From positions 4,152,483-4,216,482 of the forward strand of contig JAJEKV010000071.1 in assembly GCA_021234155.1 (NCBI GenBank): DNA of 64,000 nt. Direction: 5' to 3'. Origin of the DNA: Isoetes taiwanensis (taxonomy: Eukaryota; Streptophyta; Lycopodiopsida; Isoetales; Isoetaceae). The position numbers and the translations under genes were made by a program. The notes beneath the pieces were generated by a model that saw only the letters and a list, made by a program, of their open reading frames with translations, was not told where the DNA came from and searched no databases. Positions 5,261 to 60,990 of this stretch are shown here, piece after piece (position 1 is the stretch's first letter; every line of letters begins with the position of its first letter).

Positions 5261-5261
5261 A

Positions 5262-7513: not shown

Positions 7514-7709
7514 ACACTTCTTGTCCATATGTAATATTAAATGTATAAAAATGTTTTAAGATTTCCATGTACTATTACCTATCCCTCTATAATGTAAAAC
7601 TTCTGATGTATCAATTATCATAACTCATTGTTAACTTGGAAGTTGAATTTCAACTTGATTTCTTTTATGGTTAACAACAATTGACCTGTAAATGATGTTA
7701 TATGATGTA

Positions 7710-17878: not shown

Positions 17879-18119
17879 AAATGCCAGCATCATTTGACAG
17901 CCAACAATGTCATAAAACTGAACTGCAATATTTCCACTACTTTAAAATGAGCCTAAAGCCATGTTGACAAATAATCTCAGTGGGTTCTTCATTTCTAACA
18001 TGGACTTGTATGCATAGTTGTCTCTACCATCATTCAAATTGAATCTCTTAGATTTCCACAACTATACTTCAGAGCATTATACCTGTGTAATAGACCAGCC
18101 TGGAAACTTAGAACAGCTG

Positions 18120-18279
18120 GATAATGCAGAAGACCTGATTAACAGCATGCCATTTCAACCTGATGCAGCTTTATAAATAGCATTGCCTGTTGCATGCAAA
18201 ACCTATGCAGACGTGAAACGAGGAGAGCATGTTGCAGACCCTCTTTTCAGATTGAAGCCTGATGATGTTGGCGAAGTCT
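18120..18279 (+). pseudogene. Decayed PPR E-motif fragment (copy 2)
   Basis: Counterpart of 242-400. The ADVKRGEHV part stays in frame here, while copy 1 has lost one base. The TAA in place of Trp is shared. Confidence 0.65.
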
Positions 18280-18833
18280 CTAAATTACTTCTTTTGCTAA
18301 ATTAACTGCAGTGAAAGGCACACAATGCATGCAGATTTGCTATAATGGTATTATCATTTGGATCTGTGACAAGATAAAATCGCTAGAGTTCATTTACAAC
18401 CATGACAATTGTGCAGAGGGAGGCAAAGATTTGATGTAAGTGTTCAATCTGACCAGGGTGGTTGATTATTGAACTTGATTTACAGTAGAATTTTGCTGGA
18501 GCTAGCATCAACAACAAATTACCTCCACATGGTTACTTTTGTCTTCTATTGAAACAAAATGTTTTGGTAGATCCAACATTATTTGTCTGTCTCTGCTGCC
18601 TTTTACATGTATATAGGCATTTCTAAGCACTTTCAAATGAGGTCTTCTGTTTTTAGTTCTGCAACTTATTGTTTAACAATCTATTGTCATACTTCTAGCT
18701 GACCATATGGGCTCCTTTACTGTCGAAAGGCGATCCTGGATACTGGCAATCTGTGTATGCGAGGTGTTATTCTTGCCTCATTCTCCATGATTTTGAGACG
18801 AATTAATTCTTAACACTTCTCCTATCTGCCAGG

Positions 18834-20628
18834 ATGGTAGGATCCTTAGCATGTGTAGAAAATACTGGGGAATTCATTGAGAATGGAGAAGGACTTCAAG
18901 CTGTTGAAATCATGGAAAAGCAAGGGACATCAATATCTAGGGACATAGCATATTGCCTTCTAAAGAAGTGCTTTGAAAAGAAGGATCCTGGAGCTGGTAG
19001 GCAGGTAGAGTCACTTGTACTTCGTGGTGGCCTTGATTCAATTGCCATTTTAGGTGGCCATCTTATACGTCTGTTTGCCTACTGCGGGAGCCTTTGGGAA
19101 GCAAATCGAGTATTACGTGGACTATTATCTCAGCAAATGCAAACCTTGGAGATGGCAGGGGAGCCCTTGAATTATTTGACAGAATGCAGCCATCATTTAT
19201 GAACTGCAATAAACATGTTTACATTGCTCTTCTTAAAGCATGTGCCATGAGAGAAGCTATTGAGCAAGGCAGGTTGCTCCATTACCAGATTATAAGAAGG
19301 GCACTTGAGGATGATGTTTTTGTTGGCAATACTCTTCTTGATACGTACGCAAAATGCAAGAGCTTAGGTGAGGCACGAAAAGTATTTGATGATTTGCAAA
19401 ATCGAAGTTTAGTTTCCTGGGTGGCAATGATTGGAGGATATGCCCAGCATGGATATTTAGTTCTTGCTTTGGAGCTTTTTGAGAAAATGCAAGAAGAGGG
19501 CATAAAGCCAGAGAGAGTTGCATATCTGAATGCCTTAAAAGCATGTGCAAATCTTGGAGCTATGGATTAAGCTAAGCAGATACATCATCAAATTATCGAG
19601 TATGGCCTCATAGAAGACGTGCTGATTGGGAGTGCACTTGTGGACATGTACGTCAAATGTGTAAATTTGGAAGAAGCTCGCAAGGTGTTTCATCTTTGCT
19701 GAATAGAAATGTGGTATCATGGGCTGCAATGATTGCAGGGTATGCCAATCAGGGTGATAGTGATCTAGCTGGGCAGTGCTTTGATGAGATGCAAAGAGAA
19801 GGGATCAAGCCAGATGATGTTATTTTTTCAAGCATGTTGGCTGCCTGTAGTCATGCAGGCCGGGTGGATGACGGCCATTAATATTTCAAATCTATGAAAG
19901 AAGCTCATAATATTACTGCAGATATAACTCAGTATACCTGCATGATTGATTTTTTTGGTCGTGCAGGGCTGCTGGTTGAAGCAGAACAATTACTTCAAAG
20001 TATGAAAGCTGACATCATTGGATGGAAAACCTTACTCACCGCATGCAGAACATATGGTAATGTAACTATAGGGAAGCGATCTTTTGATAAAGTTGTCCAG
20101 TTGGATGCCCATGATGCTGCTGCCTATGTACTCATGTCAAACATCTATTCTGATGCCCAGATGTGGAATGAGGTTTCAAGAATAGAAGAGCAGAGAAAAT
20201 GTATTGGTGCATGGAAGAAGGCAGCAAAAGCATGGATTGAGATCAATGGGAAGGTGCATGAGTTTATTGTTGGAGATAAAAGCCACCCCCAAAGTGATGA
20301 AATTCATACCTTGTTGAAGAGATTGCATAAGCATATGAAGGATGAAGGTTACGTGCCAGAGCTTGGTTTAGTGTTTCAGACAATGTCTGAAGAAGGCAAA
20401 GAAGATGTCTTGTGTGGACATTGTGAAAAATTGGCCATAGCTTTTGGACTTCTCAGTTCACCTCAAGGCGCAGTAATCAGGATCACAAAGAATCTTCGTG
20501 TATGCACTGATTGCCACAATGCTGGTAAAATTGTGTCTAAGATGAAGAAGAGGGAGATTGTAATCAGAGATGTCTATCGCATTCACCATTTCAATAATGG
20601 AGCATGTTCCTATGGGGATTACATTTGA
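18834..20628 (+). pseudogene. PPR-DYW protein pseudogene (copy 2)
   Basis: Same gene as 945-2769. The frame through LLDTYAKCKSLGEARKVF is intact here where copy 1 is broken. Copy 2 instead has a loss of about 35 bases near 19115 and a CAA-to-TAA change at 19567-19569. The frameshift near 19700 and the TAA near 19880 are shared with copy 1. The DYW part keeps HCEKLAIAFGL and CTDCH and ends CSYGDYI. Each copy therefore gained private lesions after duplication on top of an already dead ancestor. Confidence 0.9.
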
Positions 20629-20649
20629 GTGTGGACATCTTTCTTGATC

Positions 20650-20890
20650 AATGTCTACCTCAAGGCTTTTGGACTTCTTAGTTCACCTCAAGACACAGTA
20701 ATGAAGGATTTATCAATGCCATAGCCGTTTCACCTCAAGGCACAGTAATCAAGAGGAGGAATCTTGGGTATTCAGTGACTGCCACAATGCTGGTAAGATT
20801 ATGTCTAAAATGGAGAAGACGAAGACTGTAATCAGGGAGCCAAACTGCATTCACCACCATTTAAACAATGGGGCATGATTTGGTAGGGAT
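20650..20890 (+). pseudogene. Second decayed DYW C-terminus (copy 2)
   Basis: Counterpart of 2790-3030 with nearly the same sequence and the same GRDY ending. Confidence 0.75.
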
Positions 20891-21382
20891 TATGATCATA
20901 TGTCTCTAAAACTACCTCTTAGAATGAGTGAAGGTAATGATAACTACTGATTTCACCATTTTAATACCGTATGTTTGTGGAATTCCAAAACTGAGTGGAG
21001 AACTTCCAATATTCAACATGGGACAGGCTTGTTATATCAAAGTTGAGTGTGGTCATTTTGGGGATTCCAGTATGCCTTGATTCTTTGATCTGGATATGGC
21101 CTGTCGTTCATTGTACTTGCAGCTGGTCGTTCCTTCTTTTAGGTCTTTGATTACAGAATTCTGATCGCGATTTTGCTGTACTATAAACACAAAGCAAAGA
21201 TGTAAATAACAGTAACACTGACTTGAAAATAAGATTGGCACCAATGGGGCTTCTCACTTGGCCAGGGCTCTAAATAGCTCCACTTGTTTATTGACTACTA
21301 TGGGAATCCGAGGAAACCCTATTGATGAAGCCGGTGGGTGTTCTTAGCCTTGTCCATGCTTGCCATAACATAAAGCAGTTAA

Positions 21383-25048: not shown

Positions 25049-25264
25049 AAGGGGGAGTGTTAGAATATAGGTTATATGATCATATACATCAAGATAGATG
25101 ACATGGCGAGTGCCATGTGTACACGCCAATATGGCAGTCCTAGTCATGAAGAGAGTCATGACTTTAGATGAATAGACGTGTCCCATCCAACATATTTGTA
25201 TATGCTACGTTGGGGGCTATTCCCAATCTAGTCCAATCTATTCCAGCATTCTATATATTTATCA
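25049..25264 (+). repeat. Polypurine tract and 3' LTR of LEA-carrying element
   Basis: AAGGGGGAG (25049-25057) primes plus-strand synthesis and abuts the 207 bp 3' LTR (25058-25264). CTTCA follows. Confidence 0.92.
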
Positions 25265-25640
25265 CTTCAGGCGCTCCAACATACTCCCTGCAACATCACA
25301 AGATTAGAACTTAGTGGTAATGACTTAACTGATGATTTCATGCAGAGGTTGGGCCTCATACTTCAATCCAGTAGCTGCCAGATTAAATACTTGGATTTTG
25401 AAAGATCGATCCGGCCAGCAACAGATATCCGACCTATTACAGAAGCACTCAAGGCGCAGGACTCCGACATTCAAACTCGGTGCTAAATCATAACCCCTTA
25501 GGGATGACAGACTTGAGCTCGGCTGATGTGGCCGGCTCAACCTAATCGGGTTGATCACGGTTGATCTCAGCGATCCGGGTTCGAAAAATCCAATCGAAGA
25601 GGAAAAAAATGAAAGCAAGCGTCTAATCCACCACGCCCAA

Positions 25641-26930
25641 CCGACCCACGCCCAACCGATCGAGCCGCCCAATATGCCCGTGTATATTTAGAGGGCCCAG
25701 ATGGCCCTAATTATCGGCATCCGTGCACCCTTTAAAAAATATATATAAGTCGGAAATATATAAACTATCTTTGTATATTCCAACTTGATATCTTGAAAAT
25801 ATCTTTTTCTCGTAAATTAATTTCTTATTGGCATAAAAGTATTCTTCGAGACCATAGGGAATGGCATGGTGAATTTTTGGGAAATTATTAATAGCCATGG
25901 ATCTGGCACAATACTAAGAATATGCCGCCAATCAATGGCTCCCAATCAACGTTGAATAAAAAATCCATATACTTGAAAATAGAGAATAAACCATAGCATT
26001 AACAATTTCTACAAAACCATGGTCTCTCTGCTAAACCAGGTTGCACATTGCTAAGCCAAACCGCCCTTAATCGACCCTCACTTGACCGCTCCCCAATTAA
26101 TCCTGTAGTCAATCCAAAAATTTGAAATGCTTGAATGAATCCTGCTGCCGAAATCAATCTTGCACAATCTCGGAATCAACCTCGGAATCAATCATCTTCA
26201 TAATGGATGCACGGCATAGCGTCTGAGACATGCCTGTTTACACGGGTACGGAGGATTCAAACCTCCGGGCCATGTCGGCCTCACCAGAACCCTTCTACTC
26301 TACTGCCATCTTACCTATCCTGCATAAATGCAAGTCAAACAGCAAACAAAGCCGACATGCAAACAACAAACAGCAGCAAAGCTACAAGCAGCAAACAGCA
26401 AACAGTAGCAAAGCATGCCACAAATTAGCGCCGCCATAGCCGATGGCTTCAACCGCCAAAGCATCTGTGGGCTTCATCGCCATAGCTCTTTGCTCTCTAC
26501 CTCTCTTCATCGCCATACCTCCCCACCTCTGTGCTTCCGCCTCTACTCCGCTACCCCAGCCAAAAAAGGAAGGGAGCATCCGTTTCTATCCACGCCCCAG
26601 AAAAACGGCCTCCAAAAAAAAATTATTCTTCCTAACATTTCAAAATAAAAGTCATATAAAAACCCAAAAAAAGCAACATCACCTCTAAATGATATTAAGC
26701 TCCTTAAACATAGCAAGATATACGATTTTTTATACAATACGCCACAGAAATCTTAGCCCAACCTTGCGATCACAAATACCAAACTCAAACGTTGGAAGTT
26801 TATTGGCATAAAAGTATTCTTGTATAAATTAAAATGCTGTGAAATCTTTTCCATCGTATTTAGAATTTAGAATACTCTTTAATTGCTAAATTAGGAAAAA
26901 TATTGACTTAAAAATCAAAATTGGGCTCGA
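25641..26930. other. Interval matching 3968-5260
   Basis: Same AT-rich interval as in copy 1, including the short signal-peptide-like ORF at 26443. No further gene recognised. Confidence 0.4.
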
Positions 26931-26932
26931 AG

Positions 26933-27412
26933 TCAGGCCTCTCCGGTCACTCCATGCCAAAGGCCTCTGCGTCGCAAACGCAGGCCTCTTCCATGCGAAG
27001 TGATCCGAGTCACTCGATTTAGAGCAAATTTGATCCAATTTTTGTATTAAAAGATGTTAGAATACTTAGAATTTGTCTAGGAATGTAGTATAGCACTTAA
27101 TTTTTGTTAAAAATATCAAAGAGTAGCCAAGATCAGGCCACTCCGGTCACTCTGCACCAATGGCCTCTGCGTCGCGAACGCAGACCCCTTTCGCGTGAAG
27201 TGATTCGAGTCACCCATATTTGCACTTTTAGATGTCCTTTTAGCATGCAATAAGTTGCTAGTTAGTCTAGAATTGATCCAGATAGGTATTTTTGTATCTT
27301 ATCACTCTTAGAAATGTTCACTTGTGGTAGAAATTAGGCCACTCCGGTCACTCCGCGCCAATAGCCTCTGTGTCGCGAACGCAGATCCCTTTAGTGCGAA
27401 GTGACTCGAATC
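26933..27412 (+). repeat. Three hairpin-forming repeats of the relic gypsy element (copy 2)
   Basis: Units at about 26933-27016, 27133-27213 and 27336-27412. Better kept than in copy 1: the inner CTCTGCGTCGCGAACGCAG stem is perfect in unit 2. Spaced about 200 bp apart upstream of the ORF B relic. Confidence 0.8.
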
Positions 27413-27589
27413 AACCAAGTTTGACCATGAATTGCCCAAATTTGACCCAACAAACTGCCATGTAGTGTTTCTTGATTTGTTTTGCTTAGATTTGCACTTC
27501 ATATTACCTTGTTTGGAGATCCATAGCCTTAGAACATAGGTCTACCTGATCAAGAACCCTTGTGCACGAAAACCTAGGCAGCCTTAGTC

Positions 27590-27599
27590 TATATAAGGG
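27590..27599 (+). promoter_or_regulatory. Putative internal TATA box before ORF B relic (copy 2)
   Basis: TCTATATAAGGGG about 115 bp before the ATG at 27708; counterpart of the site near 5916. Confidence 0.5.
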
Positions 27600-27707
27600 G
27601 ACCTCATTTGCCATTTTCTCTTCACCAAACTTGCTCTTATCCTCTTAGGCGATTATCTAGCTCCTTGTCAATCCTTCCAAACCATTTTCTGCACTCATCT
27701 ATGCTCC

Positions 27708-29180
27708 ATGGCGCCCACGAACTTTGTTCAATGGTACGAACCACATCCAGGATTTCCCTGCAGAAGAGGCCTTTCATGTGTTTGACCATCAGTTCGACCT
27801 CCATGCAACTCTGACTAGAACCTCGTACTACACTGACATAGTCTACCAGTATGACCAGCAAATCTTACCCTGAGAAGTCAGCCTTCTCCCAAGAGGATGG
27901 AAGTGGATATCCTTGGAGTCGTTGAGCCAAGTCATAGGCGGGGGTTTCAAAGTCAAAAGTCAGCTGTGGGATAGGACAAAGAACATGCCTGATTACATGA
28001 GTTGTAAGGCTCACAGGCATAGGTATATCTCGACGCATGCGGCTCTCTCCTTATTCATGCATTACAGAGCAGTCAACAGGGTGGGGGAGCCTTCGATCCA
28101 GCCCCTGGACTTGGTACCACTCAACACAAGGATAGATCACGGCCAGATCCAGGAGATTCAATCTTCGGAGTATGTTACCATGGCACGGCATCAGGGGCAC
28201 TACAAATCGAGCAAGACTATGAGCAGGAAGGGGAGGAAAACCCAGATTGGGAGAGCATGGATGCAGCAAGAATGGAGAGGCAGATAGCAAGGCATGATGA
28301 TGACATTAGGCGGGCCAATGAACCACCAATCGGCATCAAAGCTCTATCGCCGATAGTAATCAAAGGGGAGGAGTATATCTTGGCAAATGACATCCTCTAC
28401 CTCCCATACTACCTAGAAGAAGGGTTCAGAATCGACAAGCTCTTAGGTCTCATTGCAAAGGAGCAGCAGAGCGACTTCATCGACCACTCATATCAGGAAA
28501 TTCCAAGAGAAGTAGCCGAGCGGCACTCTTACACTGGTGAGACGATGTCCACGTCGCCGCATACGAATACATAAGGGAGATATATCATCGGCAGTAGCCA
28601 GTCATCCCAGAAGAATAATTCCAAGCCACCCAAAGCAGAATGTACAAATCAGGGAAAGGCTCGAGCTCTAACCGAACCGTTCGATCGCAAAGCATGCGGG
28701 AGGCATCCAACAGCATCAATCTGGACAGTGGAACCACCATCTGGAGGGACCATGAAGACCTCTTAGCACTAGACGTCTACAGTGGAGCGGCTCAAAGGAA
28801 GGGAACAGGCACGCAAGCAATAGGAAGGGGAAAGGCGCTTCGATACTATCTTCTAGTCCTCAGTCAAGGACAGATGATAGTTTTTCACAAGGAGTTCAGC
28901 CCACAAGGGGAGGAGGCCGTGACAGTCCTAATAGCAGTCTCAAGCTTTGGGCAGCAGGGCAGCAGGACCACGGATCATATCATTCTTTTCAAGAGATCCG
29001 TAGTGCTTTATAGCCTCGACTTCGCCAGGGGTCACTTGAAAGATGCGCCAGTGACGGTCGTCGTCGTCACAGCACCTCGAGGGTGGATCAGCCAGGAACA
29101 TCCTGTTGAACGTCATTAAAGGCCTCCGACTCAAAGACATAAAGAATTTTTTCAAATCCATGAAGGGCTCTTGTCGATGA
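27708..29180 (+). pseudogene. ORF B/C relic of Ty3/gypsy family (copy 2)
   Basis: Better preserved than 6033-7513. The piece 28257-28574 contains the conserved IKGEEYILANDILYLPYYL stretch. 28640-29119 contains VFHKEFSPQGEE and continues towards a basic C terminus (KDIKNFFKSMKG). The family resemblance to element 1 ORF B and the following ORF C is clear in order and spacing. Function unknown; still broken by stops in 27850-28250. Confidence 0.7.
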
Positions 29181-29261
29181 ACACTTCTTGTCCATGTGTA
29201 ATATTAAATGTATAAAAATGTTTTAAGATTTCCATGTACTATTACCTATCCCTCTATAATG

Positions 29262-37444: not shown

Positions 37445-37916
37445 ATGGTTAACCGCATCCAGAACAGACTTCCACCACCTTTTGTTGCACCTAGTTCCTC
37501 TACTTCAGAGGAAATGCCCGATGAGCATGTGTTTTTGCCTGGTGCCCAGGCTTCCTCATCTCCTGCCTCAGCAACATCCTTGTTACTCCTAGACGATTCT
37601 GACGATTCTCCAAGTCCAACACACAACAGACTGCCACCACCTTTCCAACCGTCACCGAGCCCTTTAAGGAGTAGGTTGCCTTCTCCCTTCGTTCCATCTC
37701 CACTTGTACATAGTAGGCTACCACCTCCTTTTGTACCATCACGAGAAGCTGCAGATGCTGCACCACAACAGGTGTTTCAAAAGAGACTGCCCCCACCATT
37801 TGTAGCTTCTCTTCCAACAGGAAGAAGTACAAGATCTGCAACACGCCCACAAGAATGTGAAGTTTTCCATCACTTTTCTCACCATGACTTGTCTACAAAT
37901 GAAGACGATGTTGTAA
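37445..37916 (+). pseudogene. DUF7869-like gene, 5' part with RLPPPFV repeats
   Basis: The ATG at 37445 (VNRIQN) opens a Pro/Ser-rich N terminus with five RLPPPFV-type repeats (two as RLPPPFQ and RLPSPFV) spaced 20-40 residues apart, ending in an acidic STNEDDVV. The frame is cut by element 1 at codon GTA-A. Joined across the element it continues without a stop into 51269. The repeats look like short linear docking motifs in a disordered region. The gene is divergent from the minus-strand gene at 36800. Confidence 0.6.
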
Positions 37917-39590
37917 TGTGACGTTCCAAAGCCGCGATATCGCCCGGGGCGTACACCGTCTTGCTTTGCCGTCGCAGCGTATACGCCACTCCAGCTGACG
38001 TGTACGCTAGCGTATAGCCAGGTGAGTAGCCCTAGGGGGCAACTTGCCAGAAATATGTGCAACTATTAATGTGCACATTTTCCAATGTACACACTAATGT
38101 GGGCACACATTTCCAAGTGGACACTTCATGCCAAGTGGGCCACACCCATAGGTGCAATTAATGTGCACATTTTCCAATGTACACATTAATGTGGGCACAC
38201 ATTTCCATGTGTGCACATTTGGCCACCTAGCCCTTAAAGGCAAGTGGGCCCATTTCCAAATTATCCCACATGCCAAAAGGGGATAATTGGAAACCCTAAC
38301 CAACCCCCTTGTCTATATAGGGTGGGAAACCCTAACTAGCCCAATTTTCGATTTTAGGGCTTTTAGATCTGTTTTGGGCATGCTTTACCAAAACCGCCTC
38401 AAAACTACGCTTGGGAGAATTGCATCCTTAGTTTTCATTGATTCGAGCGTCTTGGCAGGATGGTCGAGCTCAGGTCAGGAGGAGCCCCTCAAGGATCAGG
38501 TATTTGGGCAATTAGATAGTCTAAACCCTATTTTAGTCATTGAATCAGTAGGTTTAGCCTATTAAATTGCCCATAGCAGCCTCCTAGATCTCTAGATGCC
38601 AGCCTCTAACTAAAGAACCTAACTCTATGATATAGATTAAATCTTGTTCTTTAGTTCTCTATGATGTATATGGATGATGTATCTCTACGAACTCCTTGTA
38701 TTGGGAAGGGGGGTAGAGACCTAAAGCTTTGTAGATGATGCTCCTAGATTAGCCTCTCTAGCACACAATAGATTCGGCCTGTGCACAAGAGCCCCACCGG
38801 GATGTGGGTGAAGGGGCCAGACTGGCTGAGAAAGAGGTTCATGTCCTGACTCTTGAACGGTTCCTCTGGTGTGTAAGGCCTACCGGGAATCATTGTGACT
38901 AGGTCCAATGGCTTGCCACTGCGTGCGGGCAAGGCATGGGCTCGACACCCGTGAAGTGGTGTTCACTTTCCGATGGGTTCAATAACACGGGCAAAGGCGG
39001 GGCCCTCTAGTCACCTTGAGTCAAGATGTAGATCTCGGAGGAGTGATCCCTACCCGCCCCATCGGAATCGGGAAGATGAGCCCGTGAGTAGCCCCTTTGG
39101 CTATGCATCGGGCGGAGCTCTGGTGGGTCCCGACACTTTTCGCACCACTCGCAAAGTGTGCATGGGAGGGGCGGATGGAGTGGACAACCCTAAGCCATGT
39201 TCATATGCCCAAATCCATTGCCATGAATTTCGCTTTGCAATGAACTCACGGAGACCCAAGCCGTCGGTCATCCCTTTGAGTCCGAGCCTTGGGTAGGATT
39301 CCCTATGTGATGTGCTGATCCTTGTCTATGCAGAGATATGAGGAGGACCATCCTTCGTGATGGTCATATGATGTTGATGTATGTGCTACCGACATGTATG
39401 TTTACGCTTCGCAGCCTAGGTAGGCCCCGAGGGAGGCGGGGTGCAATGACCCTTCCACTCTTCCCACTTTGGAACCCGCCACGGTTGCGGTGTCATGTGG
39501 AGGGCCCCAGATTAGCATGGAGCTGGTATGGGGATGAACTCGCTTGTATACGGTGAGGGCACCGCATTACACGAGTAGGGGACGTCCACG
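37917..39590 (+). repeat. 5' LTR of element 1
   Basis: About 1.67 kb. Starts TGTGACGTTCC and ends GACGTCCAC (GACGTCACA in the 3' LTR). TATA-like CTATATAGGG at about 38314. Two direct repeats built on AATGTGCACATTTTCCAATG (from 38070 and 38159) lie upstream of it. It differs from the 3' LTR mainly in clusters near 37930-38020, 38370-38490 and 38930-39300. Confidence 0.92.
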
Positions 39591-39591: not shown

Positions 39592-39602
39592 TGGTATCGA
39601 GC
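39592..39602 (+). promoter_or_regulatory. Primer-binding site of element 1 (damaged)
   Basis: TGGTATCGAGC, where element 2 has TGGTATCAGAGCC. The missing A falls in a CAG context. Initiator tRNA-Met primer. Confidence 0.8.
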
Positions 39603-39790
39603 AATGTTCTTGGAGACCAAGAGCAAAATCGCCATGTTCCCAGTAGCACTAACTTGATAGGATCCTCAAACCTCGAAAAATGAGAAATTTTTTTCTCATT
39701 TTTTGTAGTATGCTAAGCTAATAATGATTAAAATGAATAAAAATGTAAAAAGATTAAAAATTAATGAGCCAACATCCAAAAGTAGGGGTG

Positions 39791-40041
39791 GTCTCACACG
39801 CCGCGCCAGATGCGATTTCTAGAATCTTAAATCGGCCGGGCATAACGGTGAGACATTCAAATTTTGACACCAAAAAGTTGTAAATTACAGTAAAACACCT
39901 TGATAATTCTAGATTTAAGCTAAGAATTAGTAGATTTAGCATGTTACATGTTAATTTAATAGTGGGCCCCACCATGTCTCACACGTCGCGCCCAGACGGG
40001 TTTCTAGATTCTAGGAATCGGGCCGGGCTTAGCGGTGAGAC
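39791..40041 (+). repeat. Hairpins H1 and H2 upstream of ORF A (element 1)
   Basis: H1 39791-39854 and H2 39976-40041. The outer arms begin GTCTCACACG and end (C)GGTGAGAC; inside are CGCGCC and a GATTTCTAGA / ATCTTAAATC-type inner stem. Each folds into one long imperfect hairpin. H2 ends 75 bp before the TATA box of ORF A. Confidence 0.8.
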
Positions 40042-40115: not shown

Positions 40116-40124
40116 TATAAATAG
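40116..40124 (+). promoter_or_regulatory. Putative TATA box of ORF A (element 1)
   Basis: TATAAATAG, 109 bp upstream of the ATG at 40225. Element 2 has TATAAATAGA at the same distance from its ATG. Positional conservation between two diverged elements supports a real internal promoter. Confidence 0.6.
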
Positions 40125-40224: not shown

Positions 40225-41510
40225 ATGATGGCATCGCATAAAAACAGCATCGCCGAAGCCTAGCCGGCCCGGATCCTCAGCCGCTCCTAGGCCCTCTTCG
40301 AGAATCTTTCGAGAACGCCTCCATGAAGGCTAATCTTCTTCGAGCGAGAGGGATGCAGTTCTGACAGAGCGATCGCCGACAGAAGCTCTTGGAGGACGAC
40401 CGGCCTGGACGCCATGAACCGTGATCCTAAATTTAAATTGCACTGTGAGGAGGGAAGAAGCGGACAGCAAGCAGGAGCAACCTCGAGGACGCCAACCCAC
40501 GAGGGAGCAGAGGGAACAAAGGACCAATCGATAGGCGAGGAGCAACACCGTGAAGAGACCCACACCGGGAGGAGCAAGGTAGAGAAGAGCAAAGAGTCAC
40601 CGGCTCACCCAAGAGGAAGAGGCCGACCTCGCACGCTTCGTCCACAAGTATGAAGCCAAAGAGCGCCGCCGGGAGCGGAGAACAAAGAGTCGAGAAGACG
40701 ACCCGACCGCAGCCAGCGGGTCCAAGAAAAGGAAGGCCAAAGCCATAAAGGCAGGCAAGAAGAAGGTGGTGAAGGTTGGGAAGCGGGCAGTGGATCTCGT
40801 CATCAACGAGCCGTCGGGAGAGGAGACCCCGCCCACCACCGACGACTTCTGATAAGACTACGTGCCGGGCGCAGACGGGCAAGCTCTTCAAAGCCCCGGT
40901 CAGAGGAAGAGGTCCCGAGCAGCAGCCCCAAGAACAGGAGGAGACCGGGCAGCTAGCGAAGCCCCCACCTTTTCCGACGTGGGATAGGGTTAAAGCCCCG
41001 CGACCCCAGCGAGAGGCCTATGTGATAGACCCCGTAAAGGTCTATCAGAAGAGGATTAGAGAGCACAACTCCTATATGGCGAAGTGGGAGGCCTACAATA
41101 CCTATTACCAGGAGCACAGGGTGAGGGCAGTCGAAGGTGGAGTACCCCCGAAGCAGAATCTGAAGCCACCCCCACCGAAGCCCAAGCCTCCCAGAGCACC
41201 AGGGAAGAAGCGGGCCGGCAAGAAGAAACTGGAGAACAGAGCCCTGAAGGAAATCCGGCACTTCCAGAGGAGTTACGGACTCTTGATCCCCAGGGCACCG
41301 TTCCAACGTTTGGTCCGCGAAGTTATGCAAGAATATAACACAGACATGCGCGTGACCGACGAGATGCTGTTGTGTTTACAAGAGGCGGCCGAAGCGTTTA
41401 TAGTAAAGCATTTTGAAGACTCAACGGCCTGCACGGCGCACGCGAAGAGGGTTACCCTCATGAGGCAGGACATGTATCTTGCCAGGCACATCAAGGGAGA
41501 ACGCCCTTGA
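40225..41510 (+). pseudogene. ORF A: histone H3-like protein (element 1)
   Basis: The last open frame, 40776-41510, gives 244 residues. Residues about 155-244 are a full histone H3 fold: ALKEIRHFQRSYGLLIP (alpha N), PFQRLVREVMQEY (alpha 1), LQEAAEAFIVKHFED (alpha 2), [16 protein letters not shown] (loop 2 / alpha 3) and the C-terminal KGERP. Loop 1 has the length of canonical H3, not the longer loop of plant CENH3, although ALKEIRHFQ, LLIP and RVTLMR are CENH3-like. Before the fold lie a Lys/Pro-rich stretch and a VYQKRIREHNSYMAKWEAY segment. Further upstream an Arg/Lys-rich linker (KKRKAKAIKAGKKK near 40725) is in other frames, so 2-3 frameshifts break this copy. Expected role: nucleosome incorporation or chromatin targeting for the element. 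Confidence 0.88.
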
Positions 41511-41652
41511 ATTTTGTAAATAACTGGAAATTTTGTTAATATAAAGAAAATTTTGTGTAAATAAAGTGTCAAACCCTGTTTAAATAGGTTAAGATATCGA
41601 TCCCTAACTTTTGTTTTGATTAAATTGGAGCTTTGAGCAAAATTGAGACGAT

Positions 41653-41918
41653 GTCTCACACGTCGCGCCAGGACAGATTTCTACATTTTAGGAATCGGGC
41701 TGGGCGCAACGTGTGAGACCATGCCCAAAAATGCCCAAAACAGCTCCAAATCGACTAAGTAAGGGGTCAATTCTGCCTAACTCGATGAGTTTAGTGGAAT
41801 TACAGCCTTAGATCACTTAAATTGAGTAAGCCTAGCCCAATTAGGACCCATGTCTCACACGTCGCGCCAGGACAGATTTCTAGATTTTAGAAATCGGGCT
41901 GGGCGCAACGTGTGAGAC
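41653..41918 (+). repeat. Hairpins H3 and H4 upstream of ORF B (element 1)
   Basis: H3 41653-41719 and H4 41852-41918 differ at only a few positions. Outer arms GTCTCACACGT / ACGTGTGAGAC pair perfectly; then GCGCC pairs with GGCGC, and the inner GATTTCTA pairs with TAGAAATC in H4. Possible stem of roughly 28 bp. The two lie about 180 bp and more before the ORF B TATA box. Confidence 0.9.
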
Positions 41919-42096: not shown

Positions 42097-42104
42097 TATA
42101 AATA
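42097..42104 (+). promoter_or_regulatory. Putative TATA box of ORF B (element 1)
   Basis: TATAAATA, 115 bp before the ATG at 42219. Element 2 and the relic have TATA boxes at matching places. Confidence 0.6.
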
Positions 42105-42218: not shown

Positions 42219-43270
42219 ATGGCCACTGCTGACTTCAGCCGATGGTACAGCGCCAGTGCTCACGCTGCTGAGGCAGATGTCAATGACATCTTCCAAGTCT
42301 TTGGCAAGGAAATTGACATTCAAGCTACGCTAAATGCAACCCCAGCATATAGGCAGGTGCTAGCAGAATTTCAAGCTAGGGTAGGACCTTCCCTTGTCCA
42401 AGTCCCCCCTTGCATAGGATACTTCGTTCCCCGCCCATCCCTTCAAGCAGCCTTGGGCGATGTCCCCAACATCGCCAAGTATTTGACTAACAAGGCGCAG
42501 AGGCTGCCTGACTACATGGTCTTGACAGCCAATAGGACGAAGTACTTCTCTTACACCGCAGCCCTAGCCATCTTCTTATCCCACCGCGCCGAGAACCCGA
42601 TGGGGGCAACCTCTATCCCTCCGATGGAGGTAGACCCCATAGCAGTGCAAGAAGAAGAGCAGATGCTGTTACAGTATCAACAGGAACAGGAAGCAAGAGA
42701 GGATGAAGAGGAGTCAGACAACGAAGGATACACGAGCTCGACTCGCATCTAAGAACGGCGCCAAGGAGAGCAGGGAGCCGATCGGGCTTCGAAAGCAGAG
42801 CCGGCAGGGCATCAGAGTTGCTCCCCCACTCGGGCTAGGCATCACAAGCCTAGCCCCTATCATCATCAACGGAGAGGAGTATCTACTCCTCAGCGACATC
42901 CAGAACCTTCCCGAATGCAGGGAGAGGGAGCTCAGGTTGGACGAACTGCTCCACCAACTGCGGCAGACCGACATGGACGACTTCATCGTCCGGGGAGCCT
43001 CAGACTTCCCGCTTCAAGTAAGGGAGGCCGACACCTACACTGTGGGAGACGACCTCCCATATCCGTGCCTACAAAGAAGATCAGGCAATTGATGGACGAG
43101 CTGGAGTCGCCAACAGAGGAGGAGTTCCTCGCCCTCCAAGAACAGATGGGGATCCGTGGGAAGACCACGAAGCATCCTAATGCCAATCCTCCAACATCAC
43201 CCCCGCCTAAAAGGAGAAGGAATCGACTCGTGGAGGCTCGACCGCACAATGGAAGACTACGGTGGAGCTA
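42219..43270 (+). pseudogene. ORF B: conserved accessory protein of unknown function (element 1)
   Basis: Starts MATADFSRWYSASAHAAEAD. The first open part (42219-42752, 177 residues) is globular with an acidic tail. It continues in other frames through LGITSLAPIIINGEEYLLLS (42703-43092) and a EEEFLALQEQMGIRGKTT segment (42915-43271). Element 2 and the relic show the same three segments in the same order, so this was one protein of roughly 350 residues that is frameshifted here twice. No known domain recognised, no catalytic signature evident. It has its own TATA box and hairpins and lies directly after the histone ORF. Confidence 0.65.
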
Positions 43271-43745
43271 ACTGAAATTGAAGTCGACGAGTACTGGGCG
43301 ACATGAGCCGGAGGCCAAACAAGCGAGAAGCTTCGCGACACACAAATAACGACAAAGTCGCCAGTACTACTTGCCGCTGCCGACGGATGGGGAGAATAGC
43401 GGTAATACACCGCAAGTTCAGTCCCCGAGGTGAAGAAGGAGTGTTCATGCCGACAGAATCGCCGCGGGCGCGGCGTGCATGCTCAATAGCAACAAATGTC
43501 GACTATGCCGTTTTAGTCAAGAGGGCAATGGCACTCGACCTTCGACCGCCATACCCCACCGACGCCAGCGAGATTATTATGATCGCGGCCCTACATCCGA
43601 CCCGCAGAGTAGAAGACCTGGTGAGAGCCATCCAGGAGGCTCGCCGCCAGCATCATCAGAACTTGGGTCACCTTCGGTAGGGACGCCCAAGTTAAGAAGT
43701 TTCTTGAAGACAACCCGTCTTACCGGCGATTTCAAGACTAGTTAG
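43271..43745 (+). pseudogene. ORF C: C-terminal accessory segment (element 1)
   Basis: Frame 43303-43680 has AVIHRKFSPRGEEGV, matching VFHKEFSPQGEE in the relic (28640-29119), followed by Arg-rich helices (VRAIQEARRQHH). Element 2 lacks it: its ORF B passes straight into gag. It may be the C-terminal part of ORF B. Unknown function. Confidence 0.5.
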
Positions 43746-43907: not shown

Positions 43908-45130
43908 TTGCTTGTGTATGCAGCTAGAGGCCTAAACGCAGGGGAACGACAACTGCGAGACCTTATAGAAGAGCAAACCCCGCCCAGACCACCCCCGGCA
44001 AGGAACCTATTTGCAGATATAGAACCCATGACCCCAGAGGAAGAGATATCCCAGATGAGGACGGACCTGGAGCAGATAAAGGCTCTTTTAGCCGCACAAG
44101 CAGGAGCAGGTTCGGTGGGCAATGCTCAATTGCCACAAGCATCAGCCCGGAAAACGGGAAGAGACAAGAAGAGGAGCAAGAGAAGGAGATCCCCGAGCTC
44201 GGATTCCTCCGACTCAAGCTCAGACTCAGAATCCGACTCCGAGGAAGAGGAAGAACAGAACCAGGACTGAACTGATGGAAGGCAAAGGAACACTGAAGAG
44301 GGAAGGCAGAGGAACACCCCGTGATGGACGACAAAGAGACACCTGTGGCCTCGACACCGAAGAAGGTAGATTCCGTGACCGGGCAATGTATGGAAGGCTC
44401 TGAATCGAACAGCTTCTCGGGGAGAACAGTCGATTAGAAGCAGAGGCATGGCTGGGACGAAATGAGTGAGTACGCAACGCTTTATGGCATGAAAGATAAA
44501 GACAAAGGCAGAGTTGCAACAGCCAACTTGAAAGGAGCCGCTGGATTTGGTGGAAGGGTTATGCAAAGGCACATGGCTTAAGCAGGATGCTTGTAAGTTC
44601 AGAAGTTTGCTAAAGCCTTCAAGCCATTACGCCCCAAGGGAACATAAGTCCAAAGATGATGCAAAGCCAGTTCTATAGGCTCCAACAGTGGAAACAAATC
44701 AGTCCGTAAATATACGTAAGAATTCATGAGGCTAAGGTCAGAAAAGCCGGGGTTGGGAGAGAAGCATGCAAAGGGAAAGCTATATCGAAGGGTGAATGAG
44801 GAGATCCGCAAGCTTGTGAGAGCAATAAACCCTAGGATAGTATCGGCAGAGTCCAAGGCTATAAGCTTTGCAGTGGGTCGGGACCTCGAGAATAGCGGGA
44901 GGGCAAAGAACATTTCGGTGACAAAGGCAAGGCGACAGGAGCTATAGCCCTAGGGCAGCAAATCCAGTCCAGCTAGAGCCCATATGGGGGGCAAACCGGG
45001 AAACAAAGCAGGAGAAGAAGCGTGTGTCCTTCAAGGACAAGCGGGGAGGGGTCAAACTACTCCAAAGCGGGCGATCCTTTTTGTGCCATGCCCAAGGAAA
45101 AGAGGCAGGAGTGCATAGAAAAGCAAAGGT
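43908..45130 (+). pseudogene. gag of element 1 (frameshifted)
   Basis: The N-terminal part (43908-44270) has a coiled stretch EEEISQMRTDLEQIKALLAA, a basic RDKKRSKRRRSPSS patch and an acidic Ser-Asp-Glu tail. The retrotransposon gag core follows in pieces (44470-44900: ATLYGMKDKDKGRVAT; then VNEEIRKLVRAINPRI) with at least four small indels compared with element 2. The zinc knuckle is at the start of the next frame ([11 protein letters not shown] near 45135). Confidence 0.75.
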
Positions 45131-45133: not shown

Positions 45134-48100
45134 GTGTGCTTCCAGCCAGGCCATAGGACAGCAAACTGCCCCTACGTCATGAGTGCAGCTCTAGCGGAGT
45201 TGGGAGATTGGGACACTCTGTCTGACAACGACGGCGAGGAAGCCCGTGACTACATTCAGGGTGAGTGTCATATCTTTGCCGCAATAGATACAGAGCAAGC
45301 AGAGAGCCAGTATAAAGTAATTTCCACAGTAGGGAAAGCTAAGACCAAGTCATTCATAGTCTTAATAGACTCAGGAAGTAGCCATAACTTTGCATCCCCC
45401 AGAATGGTTCAAATGTTGAAGTTGAAACCATTAAAGTCAAAGCCAAGGCCCGTTGTCTTAGCAAGTGGTGCAGTAAGGCAGACGGCAGGAAAGAGAATTA
45501 ACTTCGACATCGACTTGCCAGGGATTGGTATCCAGATGGGGGCAGAAGTAATGGGCATTGGCAAGTACGACTTGATCATAGGGATGGAGTACCTTGGGCC
45601 AGCAGGGGCCATTATCGATTGTGGAAAGCGGAAGGTGACCTTCCCAACACCCGACGGCAGGATTATTGAGATAACAGGTAAGGAAGTCGTTTCCATCATG
45701 CAGTGTATGTCTTCTAAACGGCTGTTCAAGTGCATCAAGAGTGAGCAAGTGGCATATATCTTCAAGCTTGAGATTAGTGAGCCGGAATCGGAAGGAAGCA
45801 AAGAAGACAAGGTGCTCAGCAAGTTGCCGAAGCAAATAGCTAAGCTGATCACGGAGTTCCATGATCTCTTTCCAGATGAGATCAAGCAGCTCCCTCCTTA
45901 TAGGGGAGTTGAGTGCGAGATTGCACTCGAACCAGGAACAAAGCCAACGAGCAAGGCTCCATATAGAATGACAACGCAGGAATTGTCGGAGCTGAAGAAG
46001 CAGTTGCAGGAGCTGCTTGACCTAGGTTTTATTAGACCTAGTGTCTCGCCATTTGGAGCGCCCATCCTCTTCGTTAAGAAGAAGGATGGCAGTTTAAGGA
46101 TGTGCATAGACTATAGGCAGTTGAATAAGCACACCATTAAGAACAAGTACGCGCTCCCTAGATCAGATGACTTGATGGATCAGCTCCAAGGGGCAAAGAT
46201 CTTCTCCAAAATCGACTTAAGGTCAGGTTATCATCAGATCAGGATAAAGGAAGAAGATATCCATAAGACCGCCGTAACGCGCAGACGGGCACTATGAGTT
46301 CACGGTAATGCCTTTCGGCTTATCGAATGCCCCCGCAACGTTCATGAGGCTCATGAACGACATCTTCAGGGAGTTTTTAGACACCTTTGTGATTGTTTTC
46401 TTTGATGACATTTTGGTGTATAGCAGATCCCTTGAAGAGCACGTTCAACACTTGAGAAGAGTGCTGGAGAAGTTGATGAGGCACCAGTTGTACGCCAAGT
46501 TGTCAAAGTGCCACTTCGCAACAGAGAAAGTGGAGTATCTAGGTCATGTGATCTCAGCAGAAGGCATCTCGACGGATCCTGCAAAGATTGAAGCCGCTAT
46601 TCAAAGGGCGCCACCAAGAATGTGCACGAGGTCGAAGTTTTCTGGCCTAGCAGTGGTACTACAGAAGTTCGTGAAGAACTTTGCTAAGATAGCAGCCCCT
46701 TTAACTGCAGACCTGACGAGGGCAGAGAAGGTGAAAGATTGGGTAGAGCATTGGCACAAGAAAGCCCAAAAGGGGTTTGAATTGTTGAAAGAAGCTCGAC
46801 GATTTACTGCCTTGACCTTGCCGGACCCGAGAAAGATAAGCTTGTAGCAACAGATGCAGTAAGATAGCTACAAAAAGGCTTATGCAAGAAGAGCATGTGG
46901 TAGCATATGATTCCGTGAAGATGAACGACGCCGAGACGCGCTTACCCAACGACGCATCAGGAGTTGCTTGCGGTTGTCGTGGCATTAAGAATATGGAGGC
47001 ATTATCTCTTGGGAAGGAAGTTCCAATTGATACCCACCATCGAGCCTCCAATATGTATTCACGCAACCACACCTTAACTGAGAGGTGAGGAGATGGATGG
47101 AGTTCCTCAAGAATATGACTTTGATATAGTCTACAAGCCGGGAAGCTCAATGTGGTAGCAGATGCGCTTTCAAGGCATCCCCCGACAACTAGAGTGCATT
47201 GCAATGCAATTTCGACGCCTCCAAATGACTTTGGTAAGAGGATTGAAGAGTCCTTGCCAACGGATGCGGATTTCAAAGAAGTATGGGCAAGCCTTTCTAA
47301 GGAGGCTAGAACAGATAAAGAGCGGGAGGCCTTCAAGCATTATAAGAAGGAAGGCAACCTGTTATACCATAAGAACAAGTTGTGCGCACCGAATCATCGG
47401 TGTAAGGAAGTTGATCCTCCATGACACGCACAACAGCCCAATAGCTGGCCATGCGGATTCATGAAAACATATTTCAAAGCGCAGCAGCCTATTATTGGCC
47501 AGGAATGAAGAAGCAAATAGCTCGCTACATCAAGGAATGTCAGCTATGCCAGCAGACGAAGGCGGAGCAGCTTCGAATTCCAGGGGCATTAGAGCCATTA
47601 GCGGTGCCAAACGCTAAGTGGGAGGTAATCAGCATGGACTTCATCACGGGACTCCCAAGGCGAAAGAAGAGGGAAGGATGCCTTGATGGTAGTGGTCGAC
47701 AAGTTGTCTAAGATGGCACATTTTGTGCCTTTGTGACCACGAGATACAGCTATGGATACAAAGAAAGCTCTTCACCAAAGAGATCTTCGTGCTTCATGGC
47801 ATGCCAAGGGAGATCATCTCCCATGTGGATCCGAAGTTCATGAGCGCCTTTTGGCAAGACCTCTTTGGCGACAATCCGACGGCTATCCATGAGCACGCAT
47901 ATCATCCTCGACGGATGGCCGCATCGAGCGGACCAACAGATTCTAGAGGACATGCTACTTAAACTATGTCCGAATAAGCAAAGTATGTGGGAAGAATTTA
48001 TTCACTTGGTGGAGTTTGCATACAATAGCACCAAGCAGAATCATCCCAAATGTCGCCGTTTATGATCAATTACGGCTATCGCTGTTTAACCCGCACACTT

Positions 48101-48747
48101 GGCACAACCCCCGTGTCAAAAGTGGAAGTTTCGCAGCCAGATGTTGGCGGATATGCAGCAGCCTTGTGGAAGAAGTTCGAGGGTATCTCACTGGCAAAGA
48201 AGAAGTCGCCAAGAGCATCGCCGACAAGCATCGAACAGTCAGAGAGTTCAAAGTTGGAGATGATGTTTGGCTCAAGATCAAGGTAAAGCAGGCAAAGCTC
48301 AGGATCGGGAATTGCAAGAAACTTGCTCCAAGGTGGGCTGGACCCTTCAGAATAGTCAAGAGAGTAGGCAATCAATCCTACAAGCTAGACTTGCCAGCAC
48401 ACCTAAAGATTCATAAAGTCTTCCACGTAAGTTTGTTGAAGAAGCATACTCCCAATCCAGACGAAGTCTTGGATTCTCCAACGTTGTTGGAAATGACGGA
48501 GGAGCAGCTGGAAATAGTTCCGGAATTGATTCTTGATAAAGCTTTCAAGAAAACGAGGAGATCAGAATTCCTCCAGTATTTGGTCAAGTGGAAACACTTA
48601 CCAGTGGAAGACGCGACATGGGTACTTAAGAAAGATTTAGTAAAGCAAAGATCCACAGCTTTATGGAGCAATGGGGACGGCAAGGTCATCTCCTCAAGAA
48701 ATCGGCTCGTGCATGTCGATTTGTGTAGGTTAATTCTGTGTAATTAA
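45134..48747 (+). pseudogene. pol of element 1: protease, RT, RNase H, integrase, chromodomain
   Basis: 45134-46297: zinc knuckle end, aspartic protease ([15 protein letters not shown]), then RT start ([33 protein letters not shown]). One frameshift at about 46285. 46308-46847: [12 protein letters not shown] and catalytic FFDDILVYS. RNase H (46850-47170) is worn down. Integrase 47400-48050 keeps the H..C zinc part (CQLCQQTKAE) and MDFITGLP, but the D35E region is degraded. 48016-48747: GDDVWLKIK, APRWAGPFRIVKRVGNQSYK, FHVSLLKKH and a C-terminal chromodomain (LQYLVKWKHLPVEDATWV). Chromovirus type; chromodomains direct integration to marked chromatin. Copy inactive as read. Confidence 0.93.
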
Positions 48748-49583: not shown

Positions 49584-51263
49584 AAGGTGGGGAGAATGTG
49601 ACGTTCAAAGACAAAGATCGCCCGACGCATACACCGCATCGCCGCCACACGCGCACACGCCACTCCGGTGACGCGGTACGCTTAGCGTGATAGCCAGTGA
49701 GTAGCCCTAGGGGGCAACTTGCCAGAAATATGTGCAACTATTAATGTGCACATTTTCCAATGTACACACTAATGTGGGCACACATTTCCAAGTGGACACT
49801 TCATGCCAAGTGGGCCACACCCATAGGTGCAATTAATGTGCACATTTTCCAATGTACACATTAATGTGGGCACACATTTCCATGTGTGCACATTTGGCCA
49901 CCTAGCCCTTAAAGGCAAGTGGGCCCATTTCCAAATTATCCCACATGCCAAAAGGGGATAATTGGAAACCCTAACCAACCCCCTTGTCTATATAGGGTGG
50001 GAAACCCTAACTAGCCCAATTTTCGATTTTAGGGCTTTAGAACTCTGTTTTGGCTGCCTTAACAGCCAAAACCGCCTCCCGTGACCGCTTTGGGAGAATT
50101 GCATCCTTAGTTTTCATTGATTCGAGCTTGCCTTGGGGGATGGTCGAGCTCAGTCGAGGAGCCCCTCAAGGATCAGTATTTGGGCAATTAGATAGTCTAA
50201 ACCCTATTTTAGTCATTGAATCAGTAGGTTTAGCCTATTAAATTGCCCATAGCAGCCTCCTAGATCTCTAGATGCCAGCCTCTAATTAAAGAACCTAACT
50301 CTATGATATAGATTAAATCTTGTTCTTTAGTTCTCTATGATGTATATGGATGATGTATCTCTACGAACTCCTTGTATTGGGAAGGGGGTAGAGACCCAAA
50401 GCTTTGTAGATGATGCTCCTAGATTAGCCTCTCTAGCACACAATAGATTCGGCCCAGGCACAAGAGCCCCACCGGGATGTGGGTGAAGGGGCCGGACTGG
50501 CTGAGAAAGAGGTTCATGTCCTGACTCTTGAACGGTTCCTCTGGTGTGTAAGGCCTACCGGGAATCATTGTGACTAGGTCCAATGGCTTGCCACTGCGTG
50601 CGGGCAAGGCATGGGCTCGACACCGTGAAGTGGTGTTCACTTTCCAATGGGTTCGGTCCGAACACGGGCAAGGGGCCCTCTAGTCACCTTGAGTCAAGAT
50701 GTAGATCTCTCGGAGGGGAGGATCCCTACCTGCCCCATCGGAACCGGGAAGATGAGCCCGTGAGTAGCCCTTTGGCTATGCATCCCGGCGGGCTAAGGCC
50801 GGGTCCCGACACTTTTCGCACCACTCGCAAAGTGTGCAATGTGAGGGGCGGATGGAGTGGACAACCCTAAGCCATGTTCATATGCCAGCCAAATCCATTG
50901 CCATGAATTACGCTTTGCAATGAACTCGAGACCCAAGCCGCCACCATCCCTTTGAGTCCGAGCCTTGGGTAGGATTCCCTATGTGATGTGCTGATCCTTG
51001 TCTATGCAGATATGAGGAGGACCATCCTTCGTGATGGGCATATGATGTTGATGTATGTGCTACTGACATGTATGTTTACGCTTCCGCAGCTAGGTAGGCC
51101 CTGAGGGAGACGGGGTGCAATGACCCTTCCACTCTTCCCATCGAACCCGCCACGTTGTTTAAAGTGTCATGTGGAGGGCCCTGTATTAGCATGGAGCTGG
51201 TATGGGGGATGAACTCCTGTTTGTATACGGTGAGGGCACCGTACACGAGTAGGGGACGTCACA
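49584..51263 (+). repeat. Polypurine tract and 3' LTR of element 1
   Basis: AAGGTGGGGAGAA (49584-49596) abuts the 3' LTR 49597-51263 (1667 bp), which ends GGGGACGTCACA. TGTAA follows. The LTR ends form an 8 bp inverted pair TGTGACGT / ACGTCACA. Confidence 0.93.
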
Positions 51264-51268
51264 TGTAA

Positions 51269-59774: not shown

Positions 59775-60990
59775 TTAGCGTTCTCCTTTAATAGAACTTG
59801 CCAAGTGCATGTCCTTGGTCATTAATGTTACTCTCTTGGCGTGTAAAGTGCACGCCCTCGAGTCCTCAAAATGCTGCACCAACTTCTGCTCTTCTGCTTC
59901 CTATAAGGCTAGCAGCGTTTCGCCTGTGACTCTCATGCTCGTGTCGAACTCTTGTACGACCTCCTTGACGAGTCTGGCGAATGGTGCTCGGGGAATGAGA
60001 AGGCCAGAACTTCTCTGAAAATGCCGGATCTCTCGGACTGCTTGCGACAGTCTCGATCCGGGCTTCTTTGCTACTGGCTTCTTGGGCGGGATGGGTTTCT
60101 CTGGAGGTGGCTTGAGGGTCTTCTTCTTTGATGGCCGTCCTCCTTCGACATAAGTTTCCTTATTGGCCTGGTAGTAGGAGTTGTAGGCCTCCCACTTCTT
60201 CATATATTCCTTATAGGCCTTCAATTTCTTCTGGTAAACCCTGAGATGGTCTACCACGTACGACTCCCGGCAGGTCGGGTGGGGTAGGGTGGGGGGTACC
60301 TATACCTGCTGATCCTCGGCCGCCGGTTTCGAGGAGCTCCCTACTTCTTGGTCTCCTCTGGGGAAGGGCTGGTAATCCTCGTCATTAGAGTCGTCAGAGG
60401 ATGGGGGCTGGTCGGCTGCTGTTCCTTGATGACGAGCTTGACCGTGGGTGTCTTCTTTAGCTTCTTCTTGGGCTCCTCCTTGCCCTTCCCTTTGAGCTTT
60501 TTCTTTGCTTCTGCCTCCTGTTCTTCTCACTTCCTTTTCTTCTCGGCCCTTCTCCTCTTCTTGCATTGTGACTTCGTCTCCTGCATTTGAATCCATGCCT
60601 CGATCTCTTCTTCTAAGGTGGGTTCGGGAGTGGGCTCCTTTTGTTCTTCCTGCTCATTGGCAGCCTGCTCCCGTTCTGCCCTCTCCTGCTGTCGTATCTC
60701 CTCTTCAATTTGCTCGGATACCCTGCGGGTTTCTTCATCCATTGAACCCTCAGAGTCAATGTCTGCTTCTTCGTCTAAGCGCTGGTTGATGATGTCGACT
60801 AGTTCCTCCAAGGATTCCTGCCTGGACTCCTCCTTCAGTGGTCGTCAGACATACTCTCTTCTGCTGACGAAGATGGGTCTCCTCCTGCGAGAAGCTGCTC
60901 CCGAAGTAGCTGCTGCATCCTCCTCTTGTCTTAGGCGCTAGCCCTTTCACCTGATCGATGCTTGCGTGCTGTCTGTTTGGTGCGCGCCAT
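59775..60990 (-). pseudogene. ORF A: histone H3-like protein with true H3 tail start (element 2)
   Basis: The ATG at 60990 gives MARTKQTARKHRSGERA; residues 2-10 equal canonical H3 residues 1-9, including K4 and K9. A long charged linker follows in shifting frames (60811-60527: LEEEIEAWIQMQ and KKRRRAEKKRK; 60596-60300: basic and Ser/Asp-rich). 60257-59901 gives VYQKKLKAYKEYMKKWEAYN, a Pro/Lys linker and the H3 fold: VREIHFQ-type alpha N (VREIRHFQRSSGLLIP), FARLVKEVVQEF, then a TAG replacing CAG, and in the same frame [29 protein letters not shown] and the end KGER. A TAG also interrupts near 60300, and frameshifts occur near 60940 and 60600. About 405 codons in all. Confidence 0.88.

Follow-up and report, generated by a model that had tools for sequence, protein, structure and literature searches.

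Can a retrotransposon carry a core histone gene of its own? This question is raised by a 64,000-nucleotide stretch of Isoetes taiwanensis DNA (GCA_021234155.1, contig JAJEKV010000071.1, positions 4,152,483 to 4,216,482 of the forward strand; hereafter the window), in which the initial annotation had placed a histone H3 fold inside a Ty3/gypsy retrotransposon. Host chromatin is usually viewed as acting on retrotransposons. If a family that is abundant and under selection encodes a core histone, this would mean that an element can itself provide a share of the nucleosome, and questions become testable: how silencing is escaped, how integration is targeted and where odd H3 variants come from. Nucleosome biology would in addition gain natural H3s in which a linker of ∼320–340 residues separates tail and fold.

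The element and its histone gene

The open reading frame at 40776–41510 is present, starts with TTG and encodes 244 amino acids. It matched the Pfam Histone family at 5.5e-28, with 98.1 bits against a cut-off of 26.4, and H3.3 of solved structures (PDB) at 7e-30, which confirmed the H3 fold. The extent first given to it stood only in part: the frame exists, but it covers only the 3′ portion of the gene. The whole gene is longer and starts at ATGATG (40225), the start position of intact relatives, and the window copy is frameshifted between ATGATG and the open frame. The features are as follows (coordinates in the window).

37912–37916 and 51264–51268, no strand: target site duplication TGTAA, left and right, the same 5 bases on both sides
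37917–39590, plus: 5′ LTR of element 1 (3′ end approximate), starting TGTGACGT, aligned to the 3′ LTR
39592–39606, plus: primer binding site, TGGTATCGAGCAATG in the window copy, recognised in 25 of 30 loci
39791–39854 and 39976–40041, plus: two imperfect palindromes 5′ of the H3 gene, at least one upstream in 29 of 30 loci
40116–40122, plus: TATAAAT box, a putative core promoter for the H3 gene
40225–41510, plus: element 1 H3 gene, with a frameshift in the window copy, open over 414–440 codons in relatives
41238–41507, plus: histone H3 fold (Pfam PF00125, 5.5e-28; PDB H3, 7e-30; median dN/dS 0.036)
41560–41565, plus: AATAAA, possible polyadenylation signal
41653–41719 and 41852–41918, plus: two further palindromes 5′ of ORF2, at least one 3′ of the H3 stop in 30/30 loci
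42097–42103, plus: TATAAAT ahead of ORF2
42219–43738, plus: ORF2, frameshifted in the window copy, without a Pfam match
44359–45130, plus: gag region (approximate), aligned to the gag ORF of element 2
45134–46847, plus: protease and reverse transcriptase in two frames (Pfam RVP_2 and RVT_1)
47451–48747, plus: integrase parts (Pfam H2C2, SH3_Tf2-1) and chromodomain (48517–48648)
49597–51263, plus: 3′ LTR of element 1, with a purine-rich tract just before it
59778–60269, minus: H3-fold relic of element 2, between its primer binding site (61673) and ORF2 (59054), with one internal stop

Element 1 is a 13.3-kb Ty3/gypsy chromovirus by its LTRs, target site duplication, primer binding site, domain order and chromodomain, with exact outer ends at 37917 and 51263. 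The defined ends and target duplication described in the initial annotation were borne out by TGTAA on both sides, the two LTRs and the primer binding site at 39592. The LTRs have the form TGTGACGT...ACGTCACA and align to each other at 92.5%, with 58 mismatches and 48 gap openings. In other copies and in element 2, the primer binding site is mostly TGGTATCAGAGC or TGGTATCGAGC. Because the Isoetes assembly is described as built with Nanopore reads (PMC8566536), sequencing errors may underlie some of the frameshifts in the window.

The order of element 1 is primer binding site, H3 gene, ORF2 and gag-pol. Pfam searches on pieces of elements 1 and 2, together with their alignment, placed gag, protease, reverse transcriptase and integrase in Ty3 order: gag of element 2 matches Retrotrans_gag (4.2e-17) and the chromodomain at the integrase end matches Chromo (8.8e-09), while the integrase core had no Pfam match as such in these pieces. 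The H3 gene does lie between the 5′ LTR and gag, as first proposed, but the next ORF, at 42219, was rejected as gag; the Pfam profile search returned no match to it, and gag lies downstream near 44.4–45.1 kb. ORF2 is 507 amino acids long in five of the ten relatives checked.

Eight relatives are full length (L013, L015, L016, L017, L022, L023, L024 and L026), running over 414–440 amino acids from MMARTKQTARK to the fold end and aligning at 85–92% to the first of them. They consist of a canonical H3 start, a long charged linker of ∼320–340 residues and an H3 fold that is 58% identical to host H3, and so differ in length and layout from an ordinary H3, which has 135–136 amino acids and a near fold. 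A basic linker stretch, KKRKAKAIKAGKRKVVKVGKR, is almost invariant across the eight copies, and most other modifiable tail residues are gone. Twenty-four of the 30 loci have a recognised start, ATGATGGC; 18 of these 24 encode exactly MMARTKQTARK, with synonymous codon changes, and the tail is altered in the other six. In the 24 start sequences, A at −3 and G at +4 flank the second ATG, and initiation there would yield a native H3 N-terminus.

All 30 folds align gap-free to host H3 over 89 residues, 52 of which are alike by majority. C110, H113, R116, D123, L126 and I130, which we take to be residues of the H3-H3′ bundle, are kept in 30/30 folds, and R129 is H. Presumed DNA contacts are likewise retained (R69, R83, K115, R116 and T118 in 30/30, R72 in 29/30). 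In every fold R63 is changed to P, F84 to V, Q85 to T or I, and S86 to D. The HRYRPG stretch of host H3 is replaced as well; these substitutions may mean a weak grip on DNA or no nucleosome at all. Structure prediction, one of the checks suggested at the outset, was partly informative: AlphaFold placed helices at 152–166, 173–186, 195–212, 216–225 and 230–239 of the window ORF, with a mean pLDDT of 50.4, a low-confidence model too weak beyond these helix positions.

The gene is flanked by recurrent putative transcription signals. TATAAAT was found 5′ of the H3 gene in 29/30 loci (that of L005 was entered by hand and lies at an odd distance), and it lies 105–109 nt 5′ of the ATG in each of the 24 loci whose start was recognised. 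TATAAAT also follows the H3 stop in 28/30 loci, and this second box lies 117–126 nt 5′ of the ORF2 ATG in the 26 loci where both were found. An AATAAA occurs 50–53 nt 3′ of the H3 stop in 16/30 loci. Both TATA boxes are preceded by palindromes of ∼67 nt, two each (upstream in 29/30 loci, between the genes in 30/30), and a pattern search counted 99 of them in the 30 loci, with a mean of 14.2 of 16 outer bases matching. Judged from these signals, the H3 gene is probably transcribed from its own putative internal promoter, and the palindromes are a possible binding site of a regulator. They have the form GTCTCACACGT-GCGCC...GGCGC-ACGTGTGAGAC and start at 39791, 39976, 41653 and 41852 in the window.

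Prevalence, selection and a second family

A search of the genome (1,658,258,908 bases in 1110 sequences) returned at least 150 matches to the window ORF (the best 150 of 11418 first-look candidates), which are 70–100% identical, spread over many different contigs and nearly all extend to its last residue. We compared two sets of 30 loci, each including the window copy: one fetched with H3, the other taken from at least 150 matches to ORF2 alone. In the ORF2-fetched set, an H3 fold lies ∼640–730 bp 5′ of ORF2 in 29/30 copies, some of the folds being decayed.

Among the 30 H3-fetched copies, the fold gave a median dN/dS of 0.036 and a pooled value of 0.054 (NG86, 429 pairs), and the part of the linker examined gave 0.144 and 0.234. 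The ORF2-fetched folds gave a median of 0.064 and a pooled value of 0.195 in the 26 of 30 copies that were alignable, decayed ones included, and 0.043 and 0.068 in 19 copies after seven were set aside by eye as decayed. Median dS among the copies compared was 0.65–0.80. All dN/dS values are pairwise rather than tree-based and, the copies having been picked by best match, are biased towards intact ones. The initial annotation had tied chance capture to family members lacking the ORF at this place, or to a gene free of constraint that matches a single host H3 pseudogene; neither held, with the fold present in 29/30 copies and median dN/dS of 0.036–0.064. The position of the fold 5′ of ORF2 and the purifying selection upheld the claim that the gene belongs to the element. 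These results strongly support an H3 gene that is the element's own and under purifying selection.

With Arabidopsis H3.1 as the query, the genome gave 15 matches at 96–98%, and the 12 of these that were fetched are all complete 136-amino acid host H3 genes. At least 135 further matches, among the best 150 listed, lie at 71–86%, many in frames of 400–567 amino acids. Five copies picked from these for their long open frames (L043–L047) represent a second family, F2. All five have the primer binding site TGGTATCAGAGCCGTG and an H3 ORF with another N-terminus, likely starting MAITK, MANTK or MANIK; the ARTKQTARK tail is absent from the five copies read. The F2 fold is 85–88% like host H3 (three copies compared), with dN/dS of 0–0.053 at dS of 0.10–0.94 (five copies, ten pairs). 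Because F2 lacks the ARTKQTARK tail and yet has an equally constrained fold, the selected common part is the fold.

Downstream of the H3 ORF, one F2 copy has gag, protease and integrase by eye, with the reverse transcriptase missing in that copy, and a chromodomain-like stretch containing a stop. The F2 ORF2 is a distant relative of the window-family ORF2 (25% identity, E 2e-9, single comparison), and the F2 LTR has pieces in common with the window LTRs; H3 gene, ORF2 and gag-pol are therefore an arrangement of at least two families. We do not claim a single capture behind the two folds, the window family and F2 as one clade having a p-AU of 0.0896 in a 24-row tree.

An origin from CENH3 was considered but not upheld. 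The element H3 and CENH3 sequences have in common LKEIRHFQ, LLIP.APF, R.T.E.L and VTLMR.D, and a 36-row tree gave a clade with CENH3 (96/89). The 24-row tree, with the longest rows left out, failed to uphold it: no CENH3 clade appeared, and a single clade was not rejected (p-AU 0.354). Unlike plant CENH3, the element H3 has no longer loop 1 (30/30 gap-free folds) and bears a canonical rather than a diverged tail. The host CENH3 was not picked out among the best 150 rows, which comprised host H3 and many long-frame H3 copies.

Possible roles of the element H3

What might such a protein do? Since F2 is tail-less and its fold equally constrained, whatever function the two families have in common should reside in the fold and thus in binding H4, H3 and DNA; for this reason we prefer a nucleosomal variant to a tail decoy. 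We put at about even the chance that the gene encodes a true H3 variant, selected on the element and nucleosomal, that acts on element chromatin. The variant would be made from the element's internal promoter, and its fold would pair with host H4 and with itself and wrap DNA as an unusual H3. It would take the place of host H3 on element DNA, be it new cDNA, fresh insertions or silenced copies; the resulting chromatin state would aid expression or insertion of the element, and the very long linker would stand in for most of the modifiable tail. Retention of K9 is at odds with a mere evasion of H3K9 silencing. An abundant element with a strongly preserved H3 of its own suggests that part of its chromatin is self-supplied. 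More tentatively, and with chances somewhat short of even, a Ty3/gypsy lineage may run a private chromatin programme in which its copies express the long H3 and combine it with host H4 in nucleosomes on element DNA; families would have shaped different H3s, and the long H3s of other organisms may be the same strategy.

Other readings were weighed against the nucleosomal variant. The protein could be a histone mimic, soluble and outside nucleosomes, that titrates host H3 writers, readers or chaperones by offering the ARTKQTARK tail and an H4- or chaperone-binding fold. H3 residues 1–9, exact in 18/24 copies despite synonymous turnover and borne on a long charged linker, speak for such a decoy, as does the loss of most other modifiable tail residues; the five F2 copies do without that tail while their fold is equally constrained, and the presumed H3-H3 and DNA contacts of the fold are mostly retained, so that we consider a decoy rather unlikely. 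Somewhat less probable still is a virion or cDNA protein, which would act alongside Gag in the pre-integration complex, binding nucleic acid or serving nuclear import, and not on chromatin. The near-invariant basic stretch in the eight full-length copies and the position of the gene ahead of gag would suit that role, but the protein comes from a separate ORF with its own TATA box outside gag-pol, and the strongest constraint lies in the fold (median dN/dS 0.036 versus 0.144 in the linker part examined).

An integration guide is likewise improbable. Here the H3 variant would mark element chromatin for recognition by the integrase chromodomain or another reader and bring new copies near old ones, as the chromodomain itself (Pfam Chromo, 8.8e-09) and the retention of K9 and its neighbours in most copies would allow. 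The aromatic-cage sites of a chromodomain bind methylated H3K9 (PMC6317226). In the element 1 chromodomain, LEIVPELILDKAFKKTRRSEFLQYLVKWKHLPVEDATW, two of the three, the first and the third, are missing by eye, which makes it doubtful that the integrase reads methylated K9 directly and weakens the partnership with the pol chromodomain suggested in the initial annotation; the 150 listed matches, moreover, lie on many different contigs. That the gene is a passenger, a host H3 or its cDNA captured by chance and carried along without function, is very improbable. Capture of gene pieces by plant LTR elements is on record (PMC7264820), but a dN/dS of 0.036–0.064 at high dS, a fold in 29/30 copies, a fixed promoter spacing and occurrence in two families all stand against it. 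On constraint and prevalence we reject chance capture or a pseudogene for the family; single decayed copies are dead.

Precedents and relatives

No LTR retrotransposon with a core histone was found in the literature covered (bioRxiv and most subscription journals were outside its scope), in agreement with the initial annotation; in a broader sense, however, a transposon with a histone-like gene is in print. The nearest precedent, from the part of the paper available, is a hAT DNA transposon of the fungus Pyrenophora tritici-repentis that bears the H3-like gene H3L (PMC3538342). There too an extra H3-like ORF sits in a transposable element and is amplified with it, but the hAT is a DNA element with terminal inverted repeats, and its reference genome holds 26 very similar H3L genes. 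The Isoetes element is, by contrast, an LTR retrotransposon with at least 150 copies, a median dS of 0.65–0.80, two families and a long linker. It has LTRs, reverse transcriptase and integrase parts, and Pfam found no hAT domains on ORF2 and the element pieces searched.

Single viral H3 or H4 genes, such as the xenomavirus H3 and the bracovirus H4 (PMC9145170), are likewise host-like core histones in mobile or viral genomes and are thought to enter host nucleosomes; their carriers are DNA viruses and descendants of these, unlike an LTR element, and the main text of that review, as available, has no word beginning with 'retro'. Plant LTR retrotransposons with additional ORFs, including an orchid Ty3/gypsy m6A-demethylase family (PMC9289625, PMC7264820), also have a conserved extra ORF, and an antisense ORF is reported to have its own promoter. 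No histone ORF appears among them in the accessible text: the word 'histone' is absent from PMC7264820, and its two occurrences in PMC9289625 do not refer to an encoded protein. 'Histone' also occurs 0 times in the main text, as available, of the genome papers of Isoetes taiwanensis (PMC8566536) and I. sinensis (PMC10541799).

A search of 5.8 billion proteins gave 562 matches, and the best 120 were mostly 'ena' proteins of ∼240–480 amino acids. In those read, a long linker joins an H3 tail to an H3 fold, or the start is missing. Residues 1–300 of one 'ena' H3, its tail and linker, gave 748 matches as the query, the best 120 being listed. An H3 tail opens 151 of the 233 protein records collected, and a few of these 151 are ordinary H3 fusions of other eukaryotes. 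The long H3s number in the hundreds, and P0010, P0036, P0043, P0144 and relatives have a conserved linker block, LTLPT.P...T....F..FF..HG....A.

The 'ena' linkers did not match the window-family linker, and a common origin of the two was not seen, the fold alone aligning. Nor was the 'ena' linker seen in the Isoetes genome, where at least 93 matches cover the fold part only. Because their linkers match neither the window family nor this genome, the 'ena' long H3s should stem from other organisms. Two scans of viral contigs contained none of this type. The 'ena' H3s are known from protein records, and we do not claim a retrotransposon setting for them. As a candidate grouping, the window family with the 'ena' H3s had a p-AU of 0.348 in the 36-row tree and, unstarred, 55/99 in the 24-row tree; window family, F2 and 'ena' H3s together had a p-AU of 0.354 in the 36-row tree. 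For ORF2, one relative was found among the matches listed (8000 candidates scored): P0234, of 501 amino acids, 45% identical over 99%. Its contig, 2007 bases long, comes from the 'lgn' source.

The window holds further elements and repeats. Element 2, on the minus strand at about 63170–52124, is related to element 1, the larger aligned DNA pieces being 71–80% alike, and has the same gene order, starting with an H3 fold that is decayed and continuing with ORF2, gag and pol, with the primer binding site TGGTATCAGAGCCATG at 61673. ORF2-like coding stretches of further elements lie at 6033–7253 and 27727–29035. When the window was searched with two H3 proteins, no H3 fold turned up in their vicinity; ORF2 may predate the H3 gene or occur more widely. 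Two large duplications were also seen. Positions 1–3520 and 17879–21382 are 99% identical and contain PPR-like genes, and positions 3615–7594 and 25261–29261, at 93%, hold the ORF2-bearing stretches.
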